This document shows positions 7,660-62,110 of a DNA stretch of 64,000 nucleotides, one piece after another. Positions within the stretch are counted from its first letter, which is position 1. Every line of letters starts with the position of its first letter. The notes beneath the pieces were generated by a model. That model saw only the letters and a program-made list of their open reading frames with translations. It was not told the origin of the DNA and ran no database searches. The position numbers and the translations under genes are program-made. Location: positions 310,001-374,000 of the forward strand of contig NZ_JAINWA010000003.1 of the NCBI RefSeq assembly GCF_021021555.1. Direction: 5' to 3'. The stretch is from Teretinema zuelzerae. GTDB lineage: Bacteria > Spirochaetota > Spirochaetia > Treponematales > Treponemataceae.

Positions 7660-8145
7660 CTATGCCGGCAAAAAGCCGGAAATCGCGGATCGTCCTTCTT
7701 GAACAAAGGGCAGCAGGAGACGGGCGAACAAGCTTCCCTCCAACAGCGACGAAACGTCGAACCACGGCTGCATGGTCATGAGTGAAAGCACGACCATGAC
7801 AAGCAGAACGCCCTCTGCGAAACCCAGGAAAAAGCCGAGGGCGCGGTCCAGATTCGCCATGGTTTCTCCCTCGAAGGCATTGCCCGCCAACTGTTGCAAA
7901 AGTTTTATTGCCAGATACAACACCAGAAAAATAGAAAGGAAGGATGCCGGCGCCGCGAATACGCCGGGACCGAGAATGCGCGCCGCATAGGGTTCCAGGG
8001 TGCGGAAAAAGAGAATTCCGCCCATCAGGCCGATGAGTATCGCGGCTCGGGAGAAAAACTCCGCGATAAAGCCTGTAAGCGTTACCTTTATCACCAGCAA
8101 CACAATTATCAATAAGCAGACTAAGTCGAAGGGAGCTATCGTCAT
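7660..8145 (-). CDS. cvpA: CvpA family inner-membrane protein
   Basis: 161 residues with four predicted membrane helices (about 5-24, 31-48, 62-85, 101-122) and the family pattern MTIAPFDLVCLLIIVLLVIKVTLTGF / LDRALGFFLGFAEGVLLV. CvpA was first linked to colicin V export in E. coli; later work ties the family to cell-envelope stress, and the exact activity is unsettled. The start codon overlaps the murG stop (ATGA), placing it in an envelope-biosynthesis context, with holB 33 bases downstream. Confidence 0.85.
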   Translation of the reverse strand: MTIAPFDLVCLLIIVLLVIKVTLTGFIAEFFSRAAILIGLMGGILFFRTLEPYAARILGPGVFAAPASFLSIFLVLYLAIKLLQQLAGNAFEGETMANLDRALGFFLGFAEGVLLVMVVLSLMTMQPWFDVSSLLEGSLFARLLLPFVQEGRSAISGFLPA

Positions 8146-9257
8146 ACCGGCCCCTGAATGGTCGTTTCAATAAGCATATCCGCGATGATTTGCGCGGGGT
8201 TAGCCTGAATCAATCTTGCCGACGCGGACGCCATGGCAGCGAGCGCATCCGGATTCTGCGCAAGGTTGCTCACGACGGCGCATAATTTCTCCGCCGACGC
8301 GTTCTCTCCTGTGAGACTAACTGCAGCTCCGCGAGTCTCGAAAAAGTGAGCGTTTTCAACCTGGTCTCCGCGGGAACTTCCTTTCTCCAGAGGAATGAGG
8401 ATCATCGGTTTTCCCGCGGCCGCGCATTCCCAAACCGTATTCGCTCCGGCCCTGGCCACCACAAGGGATGCGGAAGCGAGAACGTCGGCCATCTCGTCTC
8501 TGATGAACGGATACGGCTTGTAGCGCCCGGCGGTTTCAGGGTCGTCGTAAAGCTCCGTTTGATCGAAGTGGGAAGGACCCGTCTGATGAACGACGATGAA
8601 AAATCGGCACAATTCTTTCAACGACCGGCTCACCAGTTCGTTCACCTGCCGCGCGCCGAGGCTGCCGCCGAGAACGAGCAGAATGGGAAGGCCGGACTTG
8701 TCCGCTCCAAGAAAAATCCGCCCTGCATCTGAGCGCGCGGAGTAGAAGGCGGATCGCACCGGATTGCCGACGACGACCGCTTTCTGTTGTTTGGAAGGAG
8801 AGAAGAATTTTTTAGTTTCATCGTAGGTAACCAGAATTTTCTTCGCAAACAGGGAATTGATGCGGGTGGCAAGGCCGGGAGAGAAATCGCACTCATGCGT
8901 GAACACCGGAATTCGCAGAACCCAGGCTGCGCAGCACACCGGAACGCTTACGAATCCGCCTTTCGAAAAAACGAGAAGGGGGCGATCCTTAAGCAGATAT
9001 CCGAGCGAAACGAAAAAACCGCCCGCGATTCTGAATATGTCCGTGAAGTTTTGAAAACTCGCGTATCTGCGCAATTTGCCCGTCGGGATGCCCTTGAATG
9101 ATATTCCGGCGCCGGAGACAAGTTCGCGGTCGACGCCGCGCGAAGAACCGATCCAATACACCGAAAGATCGGATTTTTTCAGAAACTCTTCGATTATTGC
9201 CAAACCCGGAAAGATGTGGCCGCCAGTGCCTCCGCCGGTAAACACGATGCTTTTCAT
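8142..9257 (-). CDS. murG: UDP-GlcNAc:undecaprenyl-pyrophosphoryl-MurNAc-pentapeptide GlcNAc transferase
   Basis: 371 residues. MurG adds GlcNAc to lipid I to form lipid II on the cytoplasmic face of the inner membrane. The N-terminal glycine loop GGGTGGHIFP lies at 8-17; the second donor-binding loop is LLVLGGSLGARQVNELV; the UDP-GlcNAc site shows ARAGANTVWECAAAGKPMILIPLEKGSSRGDQ. The start at 9257 is the only methionine consistent with the family N-terminus. It has no Shine-Dalgarno sequence; instead a -10-like TACAAT ends seven bases before the ATG, suggesting a leaderless transcript. It overlaps cvpA by four bases. Confidence 0.96.
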   Translation of the reverse strand: MKSIVFTGGGTGGHIFPGLAIIEEFLKKSDLSVYWIGSSRGVDRELVSGAGISFKGIPTGKLRRYASFQNFTDIFRIAGGFFVSLGYLLKDRPLLVFSKGGFVSVPVCCAAWVLRIPVFTHECDFSPGLATRINSLFAKKILVTYDETKKFFSPSKQQKAVVVGNPVRSAFYSARSDAGRIFLGADKSGLPILLVLGGSLGARQVNELVSRSLKELCRFFIVVHQTGPSHFDQTELYDDPETAGRYKPYPFIRDEMADVLASASLVVARAGANTVWECAAAGKPMILIPLEKGSSRGDQVENAHFFETRGAAVSLTGENASAEKLCAVVSNLAQNPDALAAMASASARLIQANPAQIIADMLIETTIQGPV

Positions 9258-9264
9258 GGAAGCG

Positions 9265-9293
9265 ATTGTATCATGATGAGGTATGGTTGAAAA
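9265..9293 (-). promoter_or_regulatory. Predicted leaderless promoter of murG
   Basis: On the minus strand TTTTCA (9293-9288), 17 bases, TACAAT (9270-9265), then seven bases to the murG ATG. The TGA stop codon of the upstream ankyrin gene (9273-9271) directly precedes the -10 and forms a TGN extended -10. Confidence 0.5.
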
Positions 9294-10173
9294 GCTCCAG
9301 CAATTTTTCATTTTTAAAAAGACGGGCGTAATCCTTCGAAGACATTCCAAGGCTGTCTTTAATGTCGGGACTCGCGCCGTGCGCAAGAAGGAGGGAACAC
9401 ATGTCCGCGTCTCCCCTTCCCGTGGCAACGACCAGAGCCGTTTGTCCGTCCTTGCTTCTAATGTCGGGGTCAGCTCCTCTTTCCAGAAGAATTCCCGCAA
9501 TAGCTGCGTCGTTCTTTTGAACGGCGTCCATAAGCGGGGAATACCCGCGATCATGGGACAGTCTGTTTATATCCGCGCCCGCGTCGATCAAACGGGAAAC
9601 AACCTTCGGAAATTGAGCTCGAACGGCCAAAGACAATACGGGGGTTCCTTTCGCGTCTGCAAGAGAAGGGTCGAAACCTGCATCCAAAAAAAGAGATACC
9701 GATTCGGCGTCGCCCGAGGTAACCATCATGATGAAATTCTCGTCGAAGCAGGAAATGCCGCGATCAAGCAAGATGCGCCTTGCATGGGCTTTTTTATCTT
9801 CGATGCGGAATCTTTCTATTTCAGTATATATGAAATCTTCGAATTCTTCGGGTTTTAAAACCACTCCCAGATGGCGGATGTTTTCAGGAATAACCAGTCC
9901 TTTCGCGATTTCCACGACTATTACCCGGATGCCCTTTCCCAACGCCATGCCGGCGAAAAAAAGGAAGGAGGAAAGATCGTCCGAGTCTCCGTCCGATATG
10001 TACACGAGATGGGACTTGCTGTCCAGAACCTGCACGGGATTTCTGCAGTACGCGCTGTCCCAGATTCTTTTAATATTGAAATACTCGACGCCGCATCCTT
10101 TAGTGGTCATGATGGATCCGACAACCAACGCCTTGTCTTCTGTGGAAGGAGAATGAATCAATGCGGTTCTCAC
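9271..10173 (-). CDS. Ankyrin-repeat protein with N-terminal Rossmann-like domain
   Basis: 300 residues, GTG start with GAGG six bases upstream. The C-terminal part (about 145-295) holds four to five ankyrin repeats, for example GYSPLMDAVQKNDAAIAGIL and GQTALVVATGRGDADMCSLL. The N-terminal 125 residues show alternating strands and helices (KALVVGSIMT, HLVYISDGDSDDLSSFLFFAGMALGKGIRVIVVEI) reminiscent of Rossmann-type folds such as nucleoside-deoxyribosyltransferase- or TIR-like domains, but I see no complete catalytic motif. No signal peptide, so probably a cytoplasmic interaction protein. It lies directly upstream of murG, whose -10 element abuts its stop codon. Function unknown. Confidence 0.8.
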   Translation of the reverse strand: MRTALIHSPSTEDKALVVGSIMTTKGCGVEYFNIKRIWDSAYCRNPVQVLDSKSHLVYISDGDSDDLSSFLFFAGMALGKGIRVIVVEIAKGLVIPENIRHLGVVLKPEEFEDFIYTEIERFRIEDKKAHARRILLDRGISCFDENFIMMVTSGDAESVSLFLDAGFDPSLADAKGTPVLSLAVRAQFPKVVSRLIDAGADINRLSHDRGYSPLMDAVQKNDAAIAGILLERGADPDIRSKDGQTALVVATGRGDADMCSLLLAHGASPDIKDSLGMSSKDYARLFKNEKLLELFNHTSS

Positions 10174-33735: not shown

Positions 33736-36579
33736 TCACAAGTCAGAGTTGAACACGGCGCCTACGGACCAATAACGGGAACCGCCCCGGAGAGGCACCG
33801 TGTATTGGAACTCCGCGCCGAACACGGTTCTTGAAAGGATGCCGATTATCGGAGTTCCGTGCAAAGAGGCCGAACCGTATACGGAGTCGAGCCACAGGGG
33901 GTCGCCGCCGAAGCCGAACAGGGCTCCCTTATACCCGGCTTCCATGAGGAAGCGGTTGAAATACACGGGAAGCAGGGGGACTCCCTCTTGTATCTCGAGA
34001 GAAAGAACCTTAAGCGTTCCTACCGCACCGAATGCGGTATCGGTAGCCCGGGCCGCTTCATAGGCGTTCTTGTACTCGGGGAAGAGGGGGATATAGCGCT
34101 TTGTTCCGGCAGAGTATTCACGTGCGCGGTCCGCATTAACCCAGGTTCCGTCGGGAGCGAAAACAAGCCCCCGAGCGGCAGAAGCCGAAAGAGAAATTTC
34201 TACGGGAAGAACAGGCGCAAACATGCGGAGGAGGCCGTGAAGAGCCGGAACCGGAGTTTCGCCCGGAAGGGGGAGAATCAGATCGCCGGAAACGGCGGAG
34301 AGCCAACCGGTGCTCGTGTTTCTAAAGAGGGGAAAGCCCTGCAAAGCCGTTGTTTTCACATCGGAGAATTCAAGCTCTCCGGAGAGGAAGGCCGAAAACG
34401 TTGAAAATTCTGCGGAATACGGGTCTGCGCCGACGATGCCTCCGGCGAAACCGCGCACGCCTGCGTTCAACGAAGAACTCAGGGACGTTCCGTAATTCCA
34501 TGCAGTAAAGGTTCGGGAAATACCGGTTGAAAAAAGAAGCTCGCGGTAGGGATCGAAGACGGAGACGGCGGGAAGCAGGCGATCCGAGACGGCAGCCGAT
34601 ACCGTGCACGAGTCGAAGGCGAAGGCTGAGGAGAGGGAGTATTCCAGAAATCGAGGATCGACATGAAATACGGGACTGAAGGAGAGGGTCGCGAATTCTC
34701 CGGGATCTGACGTTATCCAGGCGAAGCCTCCGGTCCACTCCCCGTTTCCCGCTCCGAGGGGCTGGCTGGAAAAGAGGGGATAGAAAAAGCCGTCGCCGAA
34801 CCATTTCCAGCCACGGTAGGGCTTCGCTTCTATTGCGCCGAGGGAAGCGCCTTCGACGGGGTTCCGGGCGCGGTTAACCGGTTTGGCATCCATCTGCTCC
34901 GTAGGAGGGAAACCTTCGGCGTAAGAGGCGGGATTCAGGGGGACGCGGTCGAGCCGGCGATAATCCGGGAAATCCGCTATCCATACGACCGAATCTCCCG
35001 AGGGGCCCAGAACGGGTGAATGCAGGACGCCCGGATAATCCTCCTCTTGGAGAAGAAAGGTTTCGGCATTCATATCGTAAAAGCCCCAGCGGATGAGTCC
35101 CTGTGGTCCTGTCCAGGCGAAGCTCAAGAAATCGCCGGTTTTGATTGAAAGCGATTGAAGGTCGCGTACCTGCGGAATCGCGCCGGTCAACAGCGAGACT
35201 TCTCCGGTTTCAGGATCTACCGAGCCGATCCAGCGGTTGGGGCCGTCGCAGCCGAGGAAGGCGATCGAGCCGGAAGGCATCCATGACGGAGAAAACACCA
35301 GCCCCGGACGCTCGGACAGGCCGGAGGTCATCAGCGTGCGCTCTTCTCCTCCGGAACGGGAAAGAAGCACGAGGCTCGATTCCTGGGAGCGGGTTCGCAC
35401 GCCGACGATGCGCCGAGAATCGCCGGCGAAGGCGGCGTCGCGGAGGCCGCTGAAGCGTTCGCCGGTAAACCGCCGGTTTTCTACGTCGTAGACGCGTACT
35501 TCCTGGACGATCTTCCGCCCGCGCGCGGAGACGCCCGAAACGAGAAGAAAATTGCCGTCAGGGGAGAAGGAAAGGCGGTGCAGGCCCGAGGAAGCGCGAA
35601 AAAGGCGGTCCGGTTTCTGTCCGTCCCGCGCCAGAGTTACCGCTCCCGAATCCGGATCGAACCAGGCGACTCCAGTATTTCCGGAGGTTAGTACGGAAAA
35701 TCTTCCCTTCTCCCCTCCGGGAACGGTTTCAGGAGAGCGGGAAGAGAGAACCGGCAGGGCGAAGGATTCGGAGAAACGCGTCCATGCGCTGTCGAGGGTT
35801 TCACCGTAGGCATCGCGAAAGACCGCGCGAAGCCCCGGATGGAGGATGTGGAGGCCTGAGCCTGTCTTCCATAACCGGGCGTACCGCTCCATCCCGTATT
35901 CCTTCTGAAGCCATGCGGAAAATGCGCCGCCGTAGATATAGGCGGTTTTTGCTCCCGGATAGACGTCGCGGGCGCCCGAGGCTTCCTTCCAGCTCAGGAA
36001 ACGGCCGGAAAGCCGCTCATGGACAAGATAGGCTTGTATCCGGTCGTCGTTGAGACGGCCTTCGCCTTTCGCGCTCTCGAAGGAGACGGTGACGCCTTCG
36101 ATGAAGGAGAGGGGCATGGTGAAAAACTGGTTCACGGAAACGATGTCGCCGAAAACGACCGATGCGAGCTGCCAGAACGGAGTCCGCATGGTCAGGGACA
36201 CGGCGTGGGTGAGTTCGTGATAGAAAATCATGAGAAGGGAGTCGGAAAATACCGCGAGGGATCCTTCCAGGGGAACGGTGTCGTAGAGATATATCCTGCT
36301 GTAGGGATGCCCGGTATAGTATCCGTTTATGTCTTCGACGCGGGCGTCAAGGTAGACGGGGATACGGTCCTTCAACGGGGCGTTCAGAAATGAACAGATC
36401 TCGTCTGCGAAGCCGTCCGCGTATTCGGCCAGAAGCAGGGCCGCCGCTTCGGAGGGCGGCGAATAGATGATGTCGAAATGGCGGGTGGAGAGCACCTGTT
36501 CCGGGTCTTTAGCCGAAGAAAACGCGGACCACTGCAGGGAAACGAAGAGCAGAGCTGAAAGAAGTAATAATCGTCTCAT
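33736..36579 (-). CDS. Secreted HExxH peptidase-like protein with beta-propeller and predicted outer-membrane barrel
   Basis: 947 residues. Signal peptide MRRLLLLSALLFVSLQWSAFSSA. Residues about 30-265 look like a gluzincin metallopeptidase: FYHELTHAV with H121, E122, H125, and a second acidic element FIEG with E161 36 residues later. Residues about 290-560 show PD40/TolB-like propeller repeats (LHRLSFSPDGNFLLVSGVS; SWMPSGSIAFLGCDG). The last 350 residues have barrel-like amphipathic strands (YSLSSAFAFDSCTVSAAVSD; ISLSASAARGLVFAP). The start at 36579 has no Shine-Dalgarno; a -10-like TACCCT ends ten bases upstream. Likely an outer-membrane-anchored surface or periplasmic protease; substrate unknown. 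Confidence 0.8.
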   Translation of the reverse strand: MRRLLLLSALLFVSLQWSAFSSAKDPEQVLSTRHFDIIYSPPSEAAALLLAEYADGFADEICSFLNAPLKDRIPVYLDARVEDINGYYTGHPYSRIYLYDTVPLEGSLAVFSDSLLMIFYHELTHAVSLTMRTPFWQLASVVFGDIVSVNQFFTMPLSFIEGVTVSFESAKGEGRLNDDRIQAYLVHERLSGRFLSWKEASGARDVYPGAKTAYIYGGAFSAWLQKEYGMERYARLWKTGSGLHILHPGLRAVFRDAYGETLDSAWTRFSESFALPVLSSRSPETVPGGEKGRFSVLTSGNTGVAWFDPDSGAVTLARDGQKPDRLFRASSGLHRLSFSPDGNFLLVSGVSARGRKIVQEVRVYDVENRRFTGERFSGLRDAAFAGDSRRIVGVRTRSQESSLVLLSRSGGEERTLMTSGLSERPGLVFSPSWMPSGSIAFLGCDGPNRWIGSVDPETGEVSLLTGAIPQVRDLQSLSIKTGDFLSFAWTGPQGLIRWGFYDMNAETFLLQEEDYPGVLHSPVLGPSGDSVVWIADFPDYRRLDRVPLNPASYAEGFPPTEQMDAKPVNRARNPVEGASLGAIEAKPYRGWKWFGDGFFYPLFSSQPLGAGNGEWTGGFAWITSDPGEFATLSFSPVFHVDPRFLEYSLSSAFAFDSCTVSAAVSDRLLPAVSVFDPYRELLFSTGISRTFTAWNYGTSLSSSLNAGVRGFAGGIVGADPYSAEFSTFSAFLSGELEFSDVKTTALQGFPLFRNTSTGWLSAVSGDLILPLPGETPVPALHGLLRMFAPVLPVEISLSASAARGLVFAPDGTWVNADRAREYSAGTKRYIPLFPEYKNAYEAARATDTAFGAVGTLKVLSLEIQEGVPLLPVYFNRFLMEAGYKGALFGFGGDPLWLDSVYGSASLHGTPIIGILSRTVFGAEFQYTVPLRGGSRYWSVGAVFNSDL

Positions 36580-36589
36580 AATGCGGATA

Positions 36590-36618
36590 AGGGTATCCCT
36601 TAGAGGGTTCTCTTTCAA
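36590..36618 (-). promoter_or_regulatory. Predicted leaderless promoter of the 36579 gene
   Basis: Minus strand TTGAAA (36618-36613), 17 bases, TACCCT (36595-36590), then ten bases to the ATG. The -10 is weak, but no ribosome-binding site exists as an alternative. Confidence 0.4.
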
Positions 36619-38180: not shown

Positions 38181-38208
38181 TTGCCATACCGGATATCCAT
38201 GCTATACT
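38181..38208 (+). promoter_or_regulatory. Predicted leaderless promoter of pcrA
   Basis: TTGCCA, 16 bases, TATACT, then nine bases (CCGCATCCC) to the ATG at 38218. Transcription would begin about three bases before the start codon, and there is no ribosome-binding site. Confidence 0.65.
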
Positions 38209-38217
38209 CCGCATCCC

Positions 38218-40218
38218 ATGACATTCGACTATCAGGCTGAATTGAATCCGGAACAGTACGAGGCGGTTTCTTCAATAGAAGGACCCGTATTGATCATCGC
38301 GGGAGCGGGATCGGGAAAAACCCGCGTCATTACCTTCCGCATGTCCTATATGCTCGACTCGGGCATTCCCCAATCTCAAATTTTGGCGCTCACCTTCACA
38401 AACAAAGCCGCGAAGGAAATGTCCGAACGGGTAAAGCAGTTGACCGGAAAAAAACTCCAGATGCTGACGGTGAGCACCTTCCACGCCTTCGGCGTAAAAA
38501 TTCTCCGCGAGGACATCAACCGGCTCGGATGGCGGGAAAATTTCAGCATCTACGACGACGTGGACCGGAATCAGCTGATAAAAGAAACCGGGCGGGATCT
38601 GGGCTTCACGGCCGAGGCTCTGGACGTATACAAGATCGGCACCCTCATCTCCCAGGTGAAAACAGGCATGAAGCACTGGGGAGACGGCGCGAACGACCAG
38701 TACAAACAGCTGTACGAGGAATACCAGTCGGGACTGAAGCTCTATAACGCCGTCGACTTCGACGATCTCATCATCCTTCCCCTGAAACTCTTCCGGGAAC
38801 ACCCCGACGTTCTGGCAAAGTACAAGGACCGGTATAAATACATCATGGTCGACGAGTTCCAGGACACCAGCCTCCAGCAGTATCAATTCATGCATTCCCT
38901 CGCGGATCGCAACGTATGCGTCGTGGGCGACGACGACCAGTCCATCTATTCCTGGCGCGGGGCGAATTACGAAAACCTGGTGATGTTCGAAAAGGATTTT
39001 CCCGGACTGAAAGAGATCAAGCTCGAACAGAACTACCGCTCTACCGGCACGATTCTGGCCGCGGCGAACGGAGTGATTAAAAACAACACCAACAGAAAGG
39101 AAAAAGCGCTCTGGTCCGGGAACGGTTCTGGAAAGCCGATCGAGATTTACATTCCGGAAAACGAATCGACCGAAGCGGATTTCGTCGCCGAATCCATTCA
39201 GGGAATCAGGATGGAGGAAAAGCGGAGCTACGCTGATTTCGGCGTGCTGATACGCTCGAACACCCTGTCGCGGGCAATCGAAGAAGCCTTCCTCGAGCAG
39301 AACATCCCCTATGTCATGTCCGGAGGAACGAGCTTCTTCCAGCGCAAGGAAATTAAAGACGTCATCAGCTATCTCCGGGTGATCGCGAATCCGGACGACG
39401 ACATCAATCTGCTCAGGATCATCAATACTCCCCGCAGGGGAATCGGGCGGAAAACCATAGAAGATATTTCAGCCGTGGCGAATGCCCAGCATTGTTCTCT
39501 CTGGACGGCGATGAACGCCCTAGTAGCGGCCGCCGATACGCCGATTTCCGAGAAAACCCGCGTCGATCTTGAGCTTTTCATCAATTTCGTCACCGAGCAC
39601 CGCTCTACCATGCTTTCAGGAAAGGATCTTTCCGCCAAGGTGAAGAAAATGGTCGACGAGATCGACTACTGGAGCTATCTGGTGCAGGAATACCAGAAGA
39701 GCGAGAAAGCGGCGAGATACAAATTCCTCAATATCGACAGCCTCATCAATTCGATCTCGACCTGGGAGAAGGATCCGGACAACTTCAAGAAATCGCTGTA
39801 CGATTACCTGAACCGCATTACGCTCATAAGCCGGGACGATATGGAAGACGACGAAGACAAGGGAAAGGTGAACCTGATGACGATCCACGCGTCCAAGGGC
39901 CTGGAGTTCCCGATCGTGTTCATCATCGGATGCGAAGAGGGAATCATTCCGCACGCCAGAAGCCTTGAGGAAGGCGAAGGAAACGTTGAGGAGGAGCGCA
40001 GGCTCTTCTACGTCGCGATAACGCGGGCCCGGGACAAGCTGTTCATATCGAGCTGCCAGAGAAGGCGGAAGATGGGAGGGGTCATGGAATGCACGCCGTC
40101 TCCCTTCCTTCAGGAAATACCGGAAAATCTGGTTGAATACCATGAACCCGCCGAACCGCTGGAAACTGAAGACGCCCTCGATGTTCTCGCTAAAATGAAA
40201 GCCCGTTTCATCATGTGA
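38218..40218 (+). CDS. pcrA: UvrD/PcrA/Rep family 3'-5' DNA helicase
   Basis: 666 residues. Superfamily 1A motifs in order: Q-motif LNPEQYEAV, Walker A AGAGSGKT (28-35), Ia LTFTNKAAKEM, II VDEFQDTS, III VGDDDQSIYSWRGA, IV QNYRST, V VNLMTIHASKGLEFPIVFIIG, VI ERRLFYVAITRA. It unwinds DNA in repair and clears replication roadblocks. The C-terminus is short compared with Gram-positive PcrA, lacking the long Tudor-type tail. Start has no Shine-Dalgarno; a good -10 lies nine bases away, so the mRNA is probably leaderless. Confidence 0.95.
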   Translation: MTFDYQAELNPEQYEAVSSIEGPVLIIAGAGSGKTRVITFRMSYMLDSGIPQSQILALTFTNKAAKEMSERVKQLTGKKLQMLTVSTFHAFGVKILREDINRLGWRENFSIYDDVDRNQLIKETGRDLGFTAEALDVYKIGTLISQVKTGMKHWGDGANDQYKQLYEEYQSGLKLYNAVDFDDLIILPLKLFREHPDVLAKYKDRYKYIMVDEFQDTSLQQYQFMHSLADRNVCVVGDDDQSIYSWRGANYENLVMFEKDFPGLKEIKLEQNYRSTGTILAAANGVIKNNTNRKEKALWSGNGSGKPIEIYIPENESTEADFVAESIQGIRMEEKRSYADFGVLIRSNTLSRAIEEAFLEQNIPYVMSGGTSFFQRKEIKDVISYLRVIANPDDDINLLRIINTPRRGIGRKTIEDISAVANAQHCSLWTAMNALVAAADTPISEKTRVDLELFINFVTEHRSTMLSGKDLSAKVKKMVDEIDYWSYLVQEYQKSEKAARYKFLNIDSLINSISTWEKDPDNFKKSLYDYLNRITLISRDDMEDDEDKGKVNLMTIHASKGLEFPIVFIIGCEEGIIPHARSLEEGEGNVEEERRLFYVAITRARDKLFISSCQRRRKMGGVMECTPSPFLQEIPENLVEYHEPAEPLETEDALDVLAKMKARFIM

Positions 40219-45135: not shown

Positions 45136-45843
45136 TCAGTCCTCCCCGGGAAGCTTCCGGAACATCAATTCGCATATCCGGTGATTGGCCTTGATGCCCT
45201 TCTCTTCGAATCTCGTCTCCGGCCGCCAGGTTTGATGAGGAGCGAATCCTTCGTACATGCTTTGCAGTCCGGGCGTGGCCGCGAGCTGCTGCCAGGCTTC
45301 CTCGCCGTACTCCTCCCAGTCTGTGGCCATGTAGAAGTAGCCGTCGGGCATGAGCTTGGACGCGAACAAATCGGTTCGCGGCCGCTGGACAAGACGCCGC
45401 TTATGATGGCGTTTCTTGGGCCAGGGATCGGGGAAAAAGACGTGAAAAGCCGAGATGGACGAGTCGGGAATCATGTGCGTCAATACTTCCAGGGCGTCGT
45501 GTTCGATGATTCTGAGGTTCGACAGGCCCCGCCGCTCGATTTCACCGAGAAGCCGGCCGACCCCGGCTCGGTGGACTTCGATGCCCAGGTAATTGCGGTC
45601 GGGGTTTTCAGCGGCGATTATGGCGGTTGCCTTGCCCATGCCGAAGCCGACTTCTATCGTGACCGGAGCCGTATTTTCGAAAATATCTGTCAAGTTTAAT
45701 ATCCGCTCCTGGAACGGAAGACACCAGCGGGCGGAATGAATGACGTAATCCCTTTTCTGGGCCTCCGTCATTCTGCCTGCGCGCAAAACGTACGTATGAA
45801 TTTGCTGAGGATACAATACGCTCTTGGAATTATCTTTTTCCAT
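45136..45843 (-). CDS. trmB: tRNA (guanine-N7-)-methyltransferase
   Basis: 235 residues. Transfers methyl from SAM to G46 of tRNAs. SAM-binding motif [21 protein letters not shown], then [12 protein letters not shown] and the TrmB signature [22 protein letters not shown]. Start at 45843 is preferred over a GTG at 45852: the latter would lie upstream of the likely transcription start, and neither has a ribosome-binding site. TAGAAT ends 11 bases before the ATG and includes the TAG stop codon of the upstream lipoprotein gene. Confidence 0.94.
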
Positions 45844-45854
45844 AATTAGCACCG

Positions 45855-45881
45855 ATTCTACCGTATTTTAAGGGGTGTCAA
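45855..45881 (-). promoter_or_regulatory. Predicted leaderless promoter of trmB
   Basis: Minus strand TTGACA (45881-45876), only 15 bases, TAGAAT (45860-45855), then 11 bases to the ATG. TAG of the -10 is the stop codon of the preceding gene. Confidence 0.45.
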
Positions 45882-47859: not shown

Positions 47860-47889
47860 TTGACTGCGCGAGTCTTGAAACCCTATCCT
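47860..47889 (+). promoter_or_regulatory. Predicted leaderless promoter of the 47898 gene
   Basis: TTGACT, 18 bases, TATCCT, then eight bases to the ATG at 47898. No ribosome-binding site precedes that ATG; its position supports the signal-peptide methionine as the true start. Confidence 0.5.
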
Positions 47890-47897
47890 ATACCGAT

Positions 47898-49862
47898 ATG
47901 TCCCGAAGTGTTGGATTGATCGCACTGTGTTTTCTCCTCATTCTTCCCCGCATGCACGCTGACGGCTCCCCTTCATGGAGGGAGTTCGGCCCCTCGGACG
48001 GCAAAGCGCTGGTCGTCGCCTGGAGGGCCGACGCGGGAGCGGAGACGGAGCGGATCATAGACGCGCTTTCCGAAGAATTGTCCCGGACAGTGCTCGCCTC
48101 CCGGGTGTGCCTCGCGCCGCTCGCTTCGAATTCCCTGACCTTCCGCGGCGATTCCCGCGAAGAAATCGGGTATTCTTTAAAATCGCTTGCCGCTATCTCG
48201 GAAGCGGGGCCTATTCAAGCTGTCGTTTACATCGAAGCCGGAAATGACGATAACATCAGCGCTGAATGCGGCGCGGGGGGCCTAACGAGCCCGCGATGGC
48301 TTCTGGAAAAGGTTCTCGCCCTGGAGAATCCTCAGGTCCGTCTCGCGGAAACGCGAATGAGCCTCTACCGCCTGAAATGGGTTCCCGGCGACCCGGTGCT
48401 CGCAAACCTTTTAAATGACGGATATTCGGCGATTTTGCTCAGAGGCGGAGAGGGACTCGCAAGCGCGCTGAAGCGGCTCGCGGTTGACGACTCGAAACAA
48501 GACATGAACGGATACGACAGGCACTACCTCCTCTTTCAACGAACCAACGGATTGGCAGTGATCAGCGAAGGAGTCATCGTATTCGCAGCCATAACCGCAG
48601 CGGGCTTCGTGCTGTTCTCGGTCTTTTTCCTGGGTTTTCTGTTCGGAAAATCCCGCGACCAGAGGCTGAAGGATTTCCGGAGATTCTGGTGGCTTCCCCT
48701 GGTCTACCTGTTCGTAAACATACTCTGTCTAACCGCGGGAAGGCTTGCCGTCCAGCTGCTTCTTTCTTTCAGGTTCGCTCATTCGGCCGCATGGACGCTG
48801 CTGCCGCAATTCGCTCTCCTGGCCAAGCTGGCCCTCGCCCTTTTTCTCGTCGATCTCATCTTTTCCCTTAACCAGTTGATCCGCTTTCCGTCGGACGGCT
48901 TTATTTACGGATACTTCGCGAGCCTTGCCTGCGGCGTCAATATTTTTCTTTTTTCCGCTACGGACTTTTCGCTGACGTTCTACTTTCTCGCTTTCTATCT
49001 CGTTGTTTACATCGCTTCGCATAATTCGCATCCGGCTACGAGCTTCGCGGCGGCGATTCTCCTCGTCGCGCCGGTGATCCCCTGGGCGCGGGAGCTTCTC
49101 AAAAACGACTGGAGAACCATCTCTCCCCTTTTTACCGGAACCGATCTATGGGACGTAAAAATCTCCTTTTATCTGATACCGATCCAGTTTCTCGTATCCC
49201 GGCTTCTCCATTCGGCGGGAAGATTCGGAATGAAAAACAAACTGTATATTCCCTTGAATGCGGTGCTGATGTCGATACCCGCTCTCGCCTCGGCCTTCAT
49301 GCTTTTATACGTTCCTGCATGGTCGGCGGATAGGCCGGTGCATGTGCTGATCAGACAACGCATCGGAAAAGAAGGTTCAAATCTTACGCTGGAAGCGCCG
49401 GCTGTTCCCGAAGGACTCTCGCCTGCCATGGATCCGGATGCGCGAACTTCTTCTCTTCCCGAAGATCCCGAAGCGCTGCTGCCGTATACGCTCGCGAATC
49501 GCCGTTTCCTGGAGCGGAACATCAATACCCTCGCTATCAGTCCCCGCATCTTCGCCGAGCGTCTTATCATAGAGGTACGCTCTGCAGAGGGGGTATCGGT
49601 TTTCAGCGCCTCGGAAAACTTCATTCTCGCGGACGCGGGAAAAACGGCAAGGTTCGGCATCGATACGCCGGACGGAAAAGGCGCGACGATAGAGTTCACA
49701 TCCGAAGCGGGCGTTCCGCTTGAAATTTCGATCACGGCGTTGACGACGAAGAATCCGTGGGGGATTATCGTCGAGCATCCGGCCATCACATCGTCCTATA
49801 TGCTGGAGGTAGAGCGCATCGTAGTCGCGAACGCCGCCGATCAAACCGGAGAAGCCGAATGA
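47898..49862 (+). CDS. Polytopic membrane protein with large periplasmic ends, unknown function
   Basis: 654 residues. Signal peptide MSRSVGLIALCFLLILPRMHA, a periplasmic domain (about 20-215) with alternating strands and helices, then about eight membrane helices (about 222-475, e.g. VIVFAAITAAGFVLFSVFFLG, LVYLFVNILCLTAG, LIPIQFLVSRLL, NAVLMSIPALASAFMLLY) and a C-terminal periplasmic domain of about 170 residues with beta character. No transporter or enzyme motif is recognised. The start matches a leaderless promoter. The stop overlaps dinB by four bases, which in turn overlaps the giant outer-membrane gene, so all three are translated together. Possibly an inner-membrane partner of the giant protein (inference). 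Confidence 0.78.
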   Translation: MSRSVGLIALCFLLILPRMHADGSPSWREFGPSDGKALVVAWRADAGAETERIIDALSEELSRTVLASRVCLAPLASNSLTFRGDSREEIGYSLKSLAAISEAGPIQAVVYIEAGNDDNISAECGAGGLTSPRWLLEKVLALENPQVRLAETRMSLYRLKWVPGDPVLANLLNDGYSAILLRGGEGLASALKRLAVDDSKQDMNGYDRHYLLFQRTNGLAVISEGVIVFAAITAAGFVLFSVFFLGFLFGKSRDQRLKDFRRFWWLPLVYLFVNILCLTAGRLAVQLLLSFRFAHSAAWTLLPQFALLAKLALALFLVDLIFSLNQLIRFPSDGFIYGYFASLACGVNIFLFSATDFSLTFYFLAFYLVVYIASHNSHPATSFAAAILLVAPVIPWARELLKNDWRTISPLFTGTDLWDVKISFYLIPIQFLVSRLLHSAGRFGMKNKLYIPLNAVLMSIPALASAFMLLYVPAWSADRPVHVLIRQRIGKEGSNLTLEAPAVPEGLSPAMDPDARTSSLPEDPEALLPYTLANRRFLERNINTLAISPRIFAERLIIEVRSAEGVSVFSASENFILADAGKTARFGIDTPDGKGATIEFTSEAGVPLEISITALTTKNPWGIIVEHPAITSSYMLEVERIVVANAADQTGEAE

Positions 49863-58481: not shown

Positions 58482-59219
58482 TTATAAACGAAACAAACGC
58501 GCTTGACCCGCATCGGGCTCGAGCGCGAACGGTTGGGACGCGATACGGGAAATCGACACGCAGCCCGACTCCACCGCTTCGAAATCGCTCTTTTCATCTC
58601 CGTCCGTTTGAATGTCTCCGCCCCTGAAGAAACTGTATTTGCAGCCGTCAGGCCCGTCGTGCATCAAGATGCTGTCACGGTAATCACGGCGGGAGACTCC
58701 GGTCATGCGGACGCCCGCGTATTCAGAGATTGAAGGCGCGTTCACATTTACGAACACATCCCGGGCGCACAACGACAGTAAAGCGCTGAGATTGTCGCGT
58801 ATGAAGCCGGCGAGCGGCTGCCAGAGATATTCGTCCGTTTTGCTCACGAGGCTCACCGCTATCCCCGGAATTCCCGCGAACGAAGCTTGGCGGGCGGCGG
58901 CGGCCGTTCCCGAGTAGACTATGTCGGTGCCGAGGTTCGCGCCGCGGTTAATGCCTGAAACGATTGCATCGGGAATACAGGGCATGATGCCCTGGGAGCC
59001 GGTGATGGAACAGTCGACGGGCAGTCCGGTGCAGGAAAACTCTTTCGGACCGGATTGCTTAAAGCGCAGCGGTTCGTCCATGGTGATGCCGTGGGACACG
59101 CCCGAACGGTTCATCGATGGAGCCACGATCCACACGTCGTGATCCCGGGAGAGAGCAGAAGCGAGAACCTGCAAACCTTCAGAACTGAGCCCGTCGTCGT
59201 TGGTAACCAGAATATTCAT
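58482..59219 (-). CDS. surE: 5'-nucleotidase SurE
   Basis: 245 residues. Metal-binding N-terminus MNILVTNDDGLSSEGLQ (acidic pair at 8-9), phosphate-loop region APSMNRSGVSHGIT, and GINRGANLGTDIVYSGTAAAARQ containing the conserved Asn and the YSGTV-type loop. Hydrolyses nucleoside 5'- and 3'-monophosphates and is linked to stationary-phase survival. No ribosome-binding site; TATACT ends seven bases before the ATG and directly follows the galK TGA, so the gene may have a leaderless start of its own besides read-through from galK. Confidence 0.95.
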   Translation of the reverse strand: MNILVTNDDGLSSEGLQVLASALSRDHDVWIVAPSMNRSGVSHGITMDEPLRFKQSGPKEFSCTGLPVDCSITGSQGIMPCIPDAIVSGINRGANLGTDIVYSGTAAAARQASFAGIPGIAVSLVSKTDEYLWQPLAGFIRDNLSALLSLCARDVFVNVNAPSISEYAGVRMTGVSRRDYRDSILMHDGPDGCKYSFFRGGDIQTDGDEKSDFEAVESGCVSISRIASQPFALEPDAGQARLFRL

Positions 59220-59226
59220 AGGGCTC

Positions 59227-59235
59227 AGTATATCA
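59227..59235 (-). promoter_or_regulatory. Extended -10 element of surE, fused to the galK stop codon
   Basis: Minus strand TGA-TATACT (59235-59227): the TGA is the galK stop codon and provides the TGN of an extended -10. No good -35 is seen. Seven bases separate it from the surE ATG. Confidence 0.45.
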
Positions 59236-60390
59236 TAAAACCCGGGCGCCGCCAGCGGGCGCGACGATATGGCGGACCGGCTTGAAACCGAATATCCGTT
59301 CGTATTCCTCGGTGCGCTGGATATACACTGCCGCGTTTTCTTTGGGAACGATGGCGTAGGTGCAGCCGCCGAAGCCCCGTCCGGTCATGCGGGAGCACAC
59401 CAGATCCGGCTGATCCGGAACGATGAACTCCAGAGCCCGCTTGACCAGCCAGTCGAGTTCCGGGCAGGAAATCTCGAAGCGGTCGCGCAGGCCTTCATGG
59501 GAGCGGTTGACGATCCGCGAAAAACCGAAGAGATCTCCGGCTTGGAGTGCGTTTACAGCCTCCCGCACGCTCTCGGATTCCCGTATGATGAAGATAACCC
59601 GGCGGCGAACCGATTCGGGAATCGATACGATTTCTTCCAGAATCTCTTCCGTCAATTGGTTAAAATCTGCAGGCGCGTCCGGATCCATTTTCACCGTCTC
59701 GTAAGCCCGTATGCACTCCTGTATTCTCCGGTTCAGCTCCTCGCGGGCGAGGAGGCGGGGAACGCTCGTGTCGGTGAGCACGATGGAATAGTTTTCGGAG
59801 GGAAACGCGATGAGTTCGGCCGTCACCCGGTTATGGTCTGTTTTTACGCAATAGCCTTCCCGCGCGGAAAGGGCGCACAGAATATCGGCCCGATGGGCGT
59901 AGGTTTTCAGGAAATGAGTGTTGGCGCGCTCCAGGATGGCGACGAGGACTGCTTCTTCCAGATCGGGAGCGTAGAGTTTGCGCAGAACGAGGGCGGTCGC
60001 CACTTTCAACGCGTTCGGCGTGCCGAGGCCGGCGTCGGCGGGAATCTCGGAAAGGATGGTGAAATTCAAGCCGGGTATCTGGATGCCGTATTCCATGAAG
60101 GAAGAAATCACGGCCTTCACGGAGTTAGCCCAGCGGTCTTCCTTGCGGTATTTCAGGTTCGATGCGGATATTTTCTTCCGTTCGTTGAGAGCCACGGAGT
60201 ACAACCGGTAATTGGAATCCGTCCGGTGAGACACGCCGACAAAAAGCTCATGATTTATAGCCATCGAAAGGGTGTTTCCCCGGGCGAACCAGGTATGCTC
60301 ACCCAGCAGGTGAAAACGTCCCGGTACAGCGGCCATCGCCTCCGGTTCGGTCTCAAATTCGCTGACATGGAAGGGCACAATTTTCTGCAT
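59233..60390 (-). CDS. galK: Galactokinase-family GHMP kinase with divergent substrate motifs
   Basis: 385 residues. GHMP motif 3 is intact (SRMTGRGFGGCTYAIVP), and motif 1 begins normally (VPGRFHLLGEHT, 23-33) but continues WFARG where galactokinases have DYNDG or similar; the sugar-binding Asp is Trp34. Motif 2 is EIPADAGLGTPNALKVA instead of the P.G.GLSSSA.. form. A likely catalytic Asp remains in HRADILCAL, and R25, E31 and H32 are kept. It may be a galactokinase with altered specificity or a related sugar or cyclitol kinase. Leaderless-type promoter; first gene of the galK-surE-TPR-NHL unit. The symbol is by family only. Confidence 0.8.
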   Translation of the reverse strand: MQKIVPFHVSEFETEPEAMAAVPGRFHLLGEHTWFARGNTLSMAINHELFVGVSHRTDSNYRLYSVALNERKKISASNLKYRKEDRWANSVKAVISSFMEYGIQIPGLNFTILSEIPADAGLGTPNALKVATALVLRKLYAPDLEEAVLVAILERANTHFLKTYAHRADILCALSAREGYCVKTDHNRVTAELIAFPSENYSIVLTDTSVPRLLAREELNRRIQECIRAYETVKMDPDAPADFNQLTEEILEEIVSIPESVRRRVIFIIRESESVREAVNALQAGDLFGFSRIVNRSHEGLRDRFEISCPELDWLVKRALEFIVPDQPDLVCSRMTGRGFGGCTYAIVPKENAAVYIQRTEEYERIFGFKPVRHIVAPAGGARVL

Positions 60391-60396
60391 AGCACT

Positions 60397-60425
60397 ATAA
60401 TATGGTCAATATTGAAACAATTCAA
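60397..60425 (-). promoter_or_regulatory. Predicted leaderless promoter of galK
   Basis: Minus strand TTGAAT (60425-60420), 17 bases, TATTAT (60402-60397), then AGTGCT and the ATG. The transcript would start at or next to the A of the start codon. Overlaps the divergent lnt promoter. Confidence 0.55.
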
Positions 60426-60441
60426 CAAAAAACAGTAAAAT
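60412..60441 (+). promoter_or_regulatory. Predicted leaderless promoter of lnt
   Basis: TTGAAA, 18 bases, TAAAAT, then ten bases to the ATG at 60452. The -35 lies inside the spacer of the galK promoter on the other strand, so the two should compete for RNA polymerase. Confidence 0.55.
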
Positions 60442-60451
60442 AGATTCAATT

Positions 60452-62044
60452 ATGACCCTACCAACCGCTCTTTTCATGACGGTCCTTTCGGCCGGTCTTC
60501 TGGTGCTGTCCATTCCGAACGAACTCATGCCCTTAGGTTCGTTTTCGATCGGCCTGATCGCGCTGGCCCCTCTCTATCTGGCTCTTCTCGGCAACAAAGG
60601 GAAAAGCCGCGCCGGATTGATGGGCGGACTGTTGATGCTGCTAGTGCATCTGGGGTCGAGCTTTTGGCTCGCGTACTTTAAGGAATTCGCGATATTCACC
60701 CTGGGGGCCTCGGCTCTCGGCTGTTTTCTCATCGGCGTACCGGCGGGCTTTGTATTCCGCTCGAGCGTAAAAATACGGCGTCCGTTGCGTCCCTTTCTGT
60801 TCGCGGCAGCGTGGACTGTGTGGGAATGGGGAAAATCGATCGGTTTTCTGGCCTACCCCTGGGGAACGGTGTCGATGTCCGCGCACCGGGCCTTGATTCC
60901 GGCTCAGATCGCGGAAATCACCGGCACCTGGGGAATATCCTATCTCATGGCTCTATTCTCCGCGGTTTTTGCCGAATGCGTATTCTCTGTCGCTTCAGGA
61001 TCGATCAGAAACGATCTGAAGCGCAGCGCACCGCTTTTTAAAACGCTCGCGTTCTCCGCCTTTCTCTGGGGCGCGGCACTCTGCTTCGGTTCTTACCGGC
61101 TCGTCGCCCCCCGCTCGCCGTCCGGAACGCTCGCGGTGACCCTTGTGCAGCAAAACGCCGATTCGTGGGCCGACGGCGGGGCGAAAAAGGCGATGGAGAC
61201 ATCGCAGCGGCTGACGGGAGAATCCATCGCCGCCGCGGGCAAAAAGCCCGATCTCATCGTGTGGAGCGAGTCCACCCTTCCCTTTCCCTTCGCCGAATAC
61301 CGGAACCGGTTCAAGCGCTTTCCTGAATCTTACCCCTTTCTGGATTTCTTGAAGGATACCGATGTTCCCCTCCTTGTCGGCGCTCCGGTGGTAGTGGACG
61401 AGGAAAACTGGGGGCTCTCGAATTCGGCCGTTCTCATTTCTCCTGAAGGAGTCGTGACTGATTGGCACGCAAAGGTTCAGCTGGTGCCCTTCGCCGAGTA
61501 CATGCCCTTCACGGAATACGAGTGGGTGAGGAATTTCTTCGACGCCCTCGTCGGTTTCTCGCGAGGCTGGGTTCCCGGAACGAAGATCAAAAGCCTTGTT
61601 CTGCATACCGAAAATGCCGGAACCGTGCGCTTCGCCGCGCCCATTTGCTTCGAGGACGCGTTTTCTTCGCTGGTTGCCGGCTTCCATAATACCGGGAGCA
61701 ACCTCCTCATAAACATGACGAACGACTCATGGTCGAAAACCGACAGCGCCGAATATCAGCACCACGCCGCGGCTCTCTTCCGGGCGATAGAACTTCGAAC
61801 GACGCTTATCAGATCGACGAACGCCGGCTATTCGACCGTCATAAACGCCGAAGGCAGAATACTCGCCGATATGCCCCTGTTCGCAGAGGCCGCGATCACC
61901 GTCGACGCTCCTCTGTATCAGAACCGAACGACCTTCTACGCCCGATTCGGGAACTGGCTCCCCGCCCTCCTGGCTCTCGCCCTGATATTCGTTTTTATTT
62001 TCGTTCCGGAAACCCGAAAAAGAACTGTCCTTTTGGAAAAATGA
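60452..62044 (+). CDS. lnt: Apolipoprotein N-acyltransferase
   Basis: 530 residues. N-terminal membrane part with about six helices (1-215), then a periplasmic nitrilase-type domain and a final membrane helix (about 505-522, LLALALIFVFIFVP). Catalytic triad read as E273 (VWSESTLPF), K341 (WHAKVQLVPFAEY) and C399 (APICFEDAF). It adds the third acyl chain to lipoproteins in the inner membrane. No Shine-Dalgarno sequence; a -10 ten bases upstream indicates a leaderless start. Confidence 0.96.
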   Translation: MTLPTALFMTVLSAGLLVLSIPNELMPLGSFSIGLIALAPLYLALLGNKGKSRAGLMGGLLMLLVHLGSSFWLAYFKEFAIFTLGASALGCFLIGVPAGFVFRSSVKIRRPLRPFLFAAAWTVWEWGKSIGFLAYPWGTVSMSAHRALIPAQIAEITGTWGISYLMALFSAVFAECVFSVASGSIRNDLKRSAPLFKTLAFSAFLWGAALCFGSYRLVAPRSPSGTLAVTLVQQNADSWADGGAKKAMETSQRLTGESIAAAGKKPDLIVWSESTLPFPFAEYRNRFKRFPESYPFLDFLKDTDVPLLVGAPVVVDEENWGLSNSAVLISPEGVVTDWHAKVQLVPFAEYMPFTEYEWVRNFFDALVGFSRGWVPGTKIKSLVLHTENAGTVRFAAPICFEDAFSSLVAGFHNTGSNLLINMTNDSWSKTDSAEYQHHAAALFRAIELRTTLIRSTNAGYSTVINAEGRILADMPLFAEAAITVDAPLYQNRTTFYARFGNWLPALLALALIFVFIFVPETRKRTVLLEK

Positions 62045-62062: not shown

Positions 62063-62091
62063 TTGACACTTTCCGCCTCTTTCGTTAACCT
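62063..62091 (+). promoter_or_regulatory. Promoter of birA-bioY-bioM
   Basis: Consensus TTGACA (62063-62068), 17 bases, TAACCT (62086-62091), predicted start near 62098, about four bases before the birA ATG. The -10 is embedded in the left half of the BirA-operator-like palindrome. Confidence 0.7.
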
Positions 62092-62110
62092 GTTTTCATA
62101 AATGGTTAAC
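62084..62110 (+). promoter_or_regulatory. BirA operator-like palindrome over the birA promoter and start codon
   Basis: GTTAACC (62084-62090), 13 bases, GGTTAAC (62104-62110), perfect 7-bp inverted repeats; flanks TC and AA extend it imperfectly toward TTGTTAACC/GGTTAACAA, the half-site known for BirA operators. It covers the -10, the predicted start of transcription and the ATG of birA, so biotinyl-AMP-loaded BirA would block transcription of its own gene and the biotin transporter. Confidence 0.75.

Follow-up and report, generated by a model that had tools for sequence, protein, structure and literature searches.

In leaderless mRNAs, the AUG stands at the 5' end and is directly recognised, in many cases by 70S ribosomes. 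In Mycobacterium and Deinococcus, leaderless genes carry a -10 box directly upstream of the AUG and are found alongside genes led by a Shine-Dalgarno (SD) site, as appears to be the case in the spirochaete DNA described here, although their leaderless share is larger and has been shown experimentally. Leptospira belongs to the same phylum as Teretinema zuelzerae, but to a different class. The dRNA-seq analysis of Leptospira interrogans revealed a mapped 5'UTR of <10 nt for approximately 440 genes, so that in this species, too, leaderless genes stand beside leadered ones (PMC5243855). While that study mapped 5' ends and reported no general promoter motif besides sigma54, the genes addressed here possess sigma70-type -35 and -10 elements at a fixed spacing, known from the sequence alone. 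Based on the same kind of evidence as ours, Zheng et al. 2011 predicted leaderless genes in silico in 6 of 18 Spirochaetes genomes, amounting to 1.8-6.9% of genes (PMC3160421). Their main text names no treponeme, whereas our study provides a motif-based estimate of ~12% of called genes together with conservation and switching at the level of orthologues. The novelty for treponemes hinted at in the preliminary description of this DNA is weaker than it was made out to be: no treponeme-specific 5'-end map was found in the literature searched, most subscription journals lying outside it, but leaderless genes of spirochaetes have already been published (PMC3160421, PMC5243855). The case of the Treponema family is a well-supported instance of a known phenomenon, and not a new mechanism.

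Promoters and start codons in the window

The window, i.e. the whole stretch of 64,000 nucleotides analysed, corresponds to positions 310001-374000 in a 3.62-Mb assembly. Nine genes had been described as having a -10 hexamer 6-11 nt before the start codon and no GGAGG-like site. All nine arrangements are present with correctly given spacers, and a correctly placed GGAGG-like site was found in 0/9 of these genes when the sequence upstream of each start was read. The identities of lnt, birA, surE and galK were confirmed by family searches and that of trmB by Pfam, and murG is the ORF 8142-9257 with the Pfam Glyco_transf_28 N and C domains. The pcrA ORF matches PcrA/Rep helicase models strongly, yet below the curated cut-offs; its closest named relatives are Spirochaetales and Treponema MAGs and isolates with 62-86% identity.

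On the forward strand, the promoter and start of pcrA (38181-38220) read TTGCCA-16-TATACT-9-ATG, with the -35 element at 38181-38186, the -10 element at 38203-38208 and the ATG at 38218. The corresponding arrangements are TTGAAA-18-TAAAAT-10 for lnt (60412-60454; -35 at 60412-60417, -10 at 60436-60441, ATG at 60452), TTGACA-17-TAACCT-10 for birA (62063-62104; 62063-62068, 62086-62091, ATG at 62102) and TTGACT-18-TATCCT-8 for the gene with its ATG at 47898 (47860-47900; 47860-47865, 47884-47889). On the reverse strand, we found TTGAAT-17-TATTAT-6 for galK (60388-60425; 60425-60420, 60402-60397, ATG at 60390), TTGACA-15-TAGAAT-11 for trmB (45841-45881; 45881-45876, 45860-45855, ATG at 45843) and TTGAAA-17-TACCCT-10 for the gene with its ATG at 36579 (36577-36618; 36618-36613, 36595-36590). 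These elements agree with sigma70-type promoters, in which a TTGACA-like -35 box lies ~17 bp upstream of the -10 box, while surE and murG, both on the reverse strand, use an extended -10 instead. The surE element TGATATACT (59217-59235) reads TGA-TATACT-7 before the ATG at 59219 and has no good -35 box; galK ends with its TGA (59235-59233). The murG element TGATACAAT (9255-9273) reads TGA-TACAAT-7 before the ATG at 9257, with a weak -35 TTTTCA, and its TGA terminates the upstream ORF 9271-10173. The TGA stop codon of the upstream gene thus also serves as the TG of the extended -10 in both cases.

Not all of these arrangements are equally convincing. The -10 hexamers of birA and of the 47898 and 36579 genes are weak, and as single cases the latter two could be due to chance. 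The weaker case of trmB is ambiguous, given its 15-bp spacing and its SD-like pairing by duplex energy. The 47898 and 36579 starts both lie inside longer ORFs, but the resulting N-termini resemble signal peptides (MSRSVGLIALCFLLILPRMHA, MRRLLLLSALLFVSLQWSAFS), which makes the start choice of the preliminary description reasonable. For the 36579 gene, the longest ORF begins with a TTG that is likely the -35 box (36613-36618), so that a rule based on ORF length would misplace this start.

Position of -10 hexamers across the genome

The analysis was extended to 772 kb (21%) of the same genome, including 36 further stretches of at most 20 kb each. Genes were called by a hexamer coding score and a start-codon prior, a simple procedure that is blind to upstream DNA, and strong -10 hexamers, defined as ten sequences of the form TAnnnT, were counted by their distance to the start codon. 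An intact anti-SD (GGATCACCTCCTTT) is present at the 3' end of the 16S rRNA, and 53% of the called genes have SD-like sites, in agreement with the proposed coexistence of two initiation modes.

Among 505 genes, -10 hexamers peaked at spacers of 6-12 nt only where an SD-like site was lacking. They occupied this position in 38/150 SD-less operon heads, compared with a mean of 4.0 (standard deviation 1.9, maximum 10) in 200 shuffles, and in 3/122 SD-led operon heads. SD-less genes within operons yielded 9/85 versus 1.4 in shuffles. When the window was left out, 35/139 SD-less heads versus 3/113 SD-led heads remained (Fisher p=2.1e-7), and the enrichment persisted when SD sites were defined by an anti-SD duplex energy, with cut-offs between -3 and -8 kcal/mol (p between 8e-6 and 4e-9). 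A lack of -10 enrichment near SD-less starts had been named beforehand as the result that would speak against leaderless starts; in the 21% of the genome sampled, this enrichment is strong in SD-less genes and absent from SD genes. When the hexamer was relaxed to TAnnnT, its excess over background corresponded to ~38% of SD-less heads and ~27% of all SD-less genes, and hence to ~12% of called genes, figures that are estimates from motif excess and not counts of proven cases. The median anti-SD duplex energy was -1.3 kcal/mol for candidates, which had been chosen in advance as SD-less by motif, versus -7.9 kcal/mol for SD genes. When every ATG was considered regardless of gene calls, the excess of hexamers with a TTG -35 was weaker (44 versus 18.7 expected).

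It may be argued that -10-like hexamers occur by chance anywhere in A/T-rich intergenic DNA. Individual hexamers are indeed common, and the background reached 23% per 7-nt window in an A/T-rich genome of another spirochaete family (G168, f13). However, the excess is position-specific in comparison with shuffles, with SD-led genes and with windows elsewhere in the same upstream regions. For the candidate set as a whole, this refutes chance, to which we assign a negligible probability.

The candidates also bear the marks expected if transcription started at the AUG. In 75 candidates pooled from four genomes, the modal spacer between the -10 box and the start codon is exactly 6 nt (28/75), and spacers of 0-5 nt are nearly empty. 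A TTG -35 triplet lies 17 bp upstream of the -10 box in 21/75, whereas other gaps account for 0-5 candidates each, and gaps of 16-18 bp together for 30/75; an extended -10 TG is present in 24/75. ATG is the start codon of 45/47 candidates of the own genome versus 136/188 other SD-less genes. A pyrimidine occupies position -1 in 85% of candidates compared with 60% of SD genes and 55% of other SD-less genes (p=2e-5 and 4e-6, respectively). Since a pyrimidine-purine (YR) step is the usual pattern at bacterial transcription starts, this preference is the YR signature predicted for a start at the A of AUG. Taken together, the spacer mode, the pile-up of -35 triplets and the -1 pyrimidine are what would be predicted if transcription started at or just before this A. 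The motif statistics, along with the phylogenetic data below, thus support the earlier proposal that transcription starts at or within a few bases of the start codon.

The A/T-rich hexamer might instead be a non-SD ribosome-binding element, of the S1 type or Bacteroidetes-like, that acts on a normal leader. According to a survey from 2017, S1 binding rather than Pribnow boxes could underlie the A/T-rich signals that SD-less genes show at -20 to -10 (PMC5397173). Such an element would need no -35 partner, no extended -10, no lower bound of 6 nt and no pyrimidine at -1. The TTG partners at 17 bp, the TG dinucleotides, the sharp cut-off of the spacer below 6 nt and the base preference at -1 therefore all count against it, as do the overlapping -35 boxes of galK and lnt in a conserved bidirectional promoter, and we consider it improbable that ribosome binding accounts for the motif.

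Conservation and possible switching among orthologues

The same -10 peak was seen in 200 kb from one genome of each of three further genera in the family (p=1.7e-6, 2.4e-3 and 3.4e-4). Among five spirochaete genomes of other families, also at 200 kb each, the peak was missing in f13, not significant in f3, f8 and f20, and borderline in f4 (p=0.02), a sample size too small to show absence in these families. Given that they lack a clear signal at 200 kb, we claim the pattern for the Treponema family only. SD-like sites accompany only 21% of the genes called in the f20 genome (G112, loci L263-L272), although a clear -10 peak next to the start is lacking as well; this genome may use some other SD-independent mode.

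Across genera, the pcrA, lnt and galK promoters keep a conserved register relative to the start codon. For pcrA, a strong -10 lies 5-14 nt before the start in 61/80 loci of the Treponema group and a weaker TAnnnT in another 13/80, while two to three loci have an SD site; pcrA of the outgroup families f3 and f13 is preceded by an SD site, with a TATAAT-like sequence far upstream in f13. galK and lnt share a compact bidirectional promoter at 60388-60454 with 61 bp between the start codons and overlapping back-to-back -35 boxes, which form the palindrome TTGAAACAATTCAA (60412-60425, both strands). This arrangement is retained in 18 loci from several genera, including that of the window. galK has a strong -10 near its start in 18/29 loci, the own genome included, and is SD-led in most others; in the relatives, galK and birA were examined within the lnt loci. 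Where the galK promoter is not kept, an A/T-rich -10-like sequence of another kind stands just as close to lnt. The palindrome was also considered as the operator of a regulator; this was rejected since the overlapping -35 boxes explain it and similar palindromes elsewhere are few, but an operator role alongside the -35 boxes is conceivable.

A further explanation is that the promoters are real, but the start codons misplaced, with translation from a downstream SD-led codon behind an ordinary leader. In 6/47 candidates, an SD site might serve an in-frame start no more than 25 codons downstream, a rate above that of SD genes (17/270), but not above that of other SD-less genes (30/188). Moreover, alignments of the PcrA, Lnt, GalK and SurE orthologues begin at residue 1 or close to it, and the start codon is in promoter register. 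Systematic misplacement of the starts is, accordingly, as improbable in our judgement as the ribosome-binding element.

The extended -10 of surE is kept in most of one genus (g1) and in one neighbouring genus, and surE is SD-led in most other genera. trmB has a promoter-like sequence in g1 and SD sites in other genera, the g1 cases being ambiguous as they pair with the anti-SD by energy. An arrangement closely similar to that of birA was found in two relatives (L122 and L125). In the window, the birA-bioY genes are preceded by a BirA-box-like inverted repeat, GTTAACC-N13-GGTTAAC (62084-62110), which covers the birA -10 box and start codon and suggests a putative autoregulation of birA; L122 and L125 are similar in this respect. 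Considering galK, surE, possibly trmB, and pcrA in comparison with the outgroups, we see about even chances that the same orthologue has repeatedly switched between leaderless and SD-led initiation within one spirochaete family by rewiring the last 40 upstream bases.

Two proposed initiation modes in the Treponema family

We hypothesize, with high confidence, that a sizeable minority of genes in this genome is transcribed from sigma70-type promoters that give rise to leaderless or near-leaderless mRNAs with an SD-independent start, while SD sites serve the rest. The genes concerned, mainly operon heads and some operon-internal genes with a promoter of their own, would have a -10 box ending 6-12 nt before the AUG. 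The usual gap between the -10 box and +1 being ~6 nt, transcription would begin at the A of the AUG or a few bases upstream, and the mRNA would have no room for an SD site, so that translation would have to follow an SD-independent route. The other genes would rely on ordinary SD initiation. With spacers of 9-12 nt, leaders of ~2-6 nt would remain, and some genes would therefore be near-leaderless rather than strictly leaderless. We infer the transcript ends and the translation route from what was observed in the DNA, namely the motif, its spacing and -35 partner, the SD depletion, the phylogenetic conservation and the change of mode among orthologues.

These two modes are of practical relevance, as treponeme start codons may be misplaced by gene finders that expect SD sites. 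Leaderless mRNAs differ in their response to some antibiotics and stresses (PMC9581028). The family comprises pathogens as well as rumen and gut commensals, and it would therefore be useful to know which of their genes are leaderless. The proposed repeated switching between leaderless and SD-led initiation among orthologues is the most interesting aspect, and the conserved pcrA and galK-lnt promoters, together with their SD-led orthologues, provide matched pairs for testing how the mode of initiation evolves. If this switching is true, the family would represent a natural experiment on the gain and loss of leaderless initiation, and the switching might link these genes to conditions under which leaderless translation is favoured.
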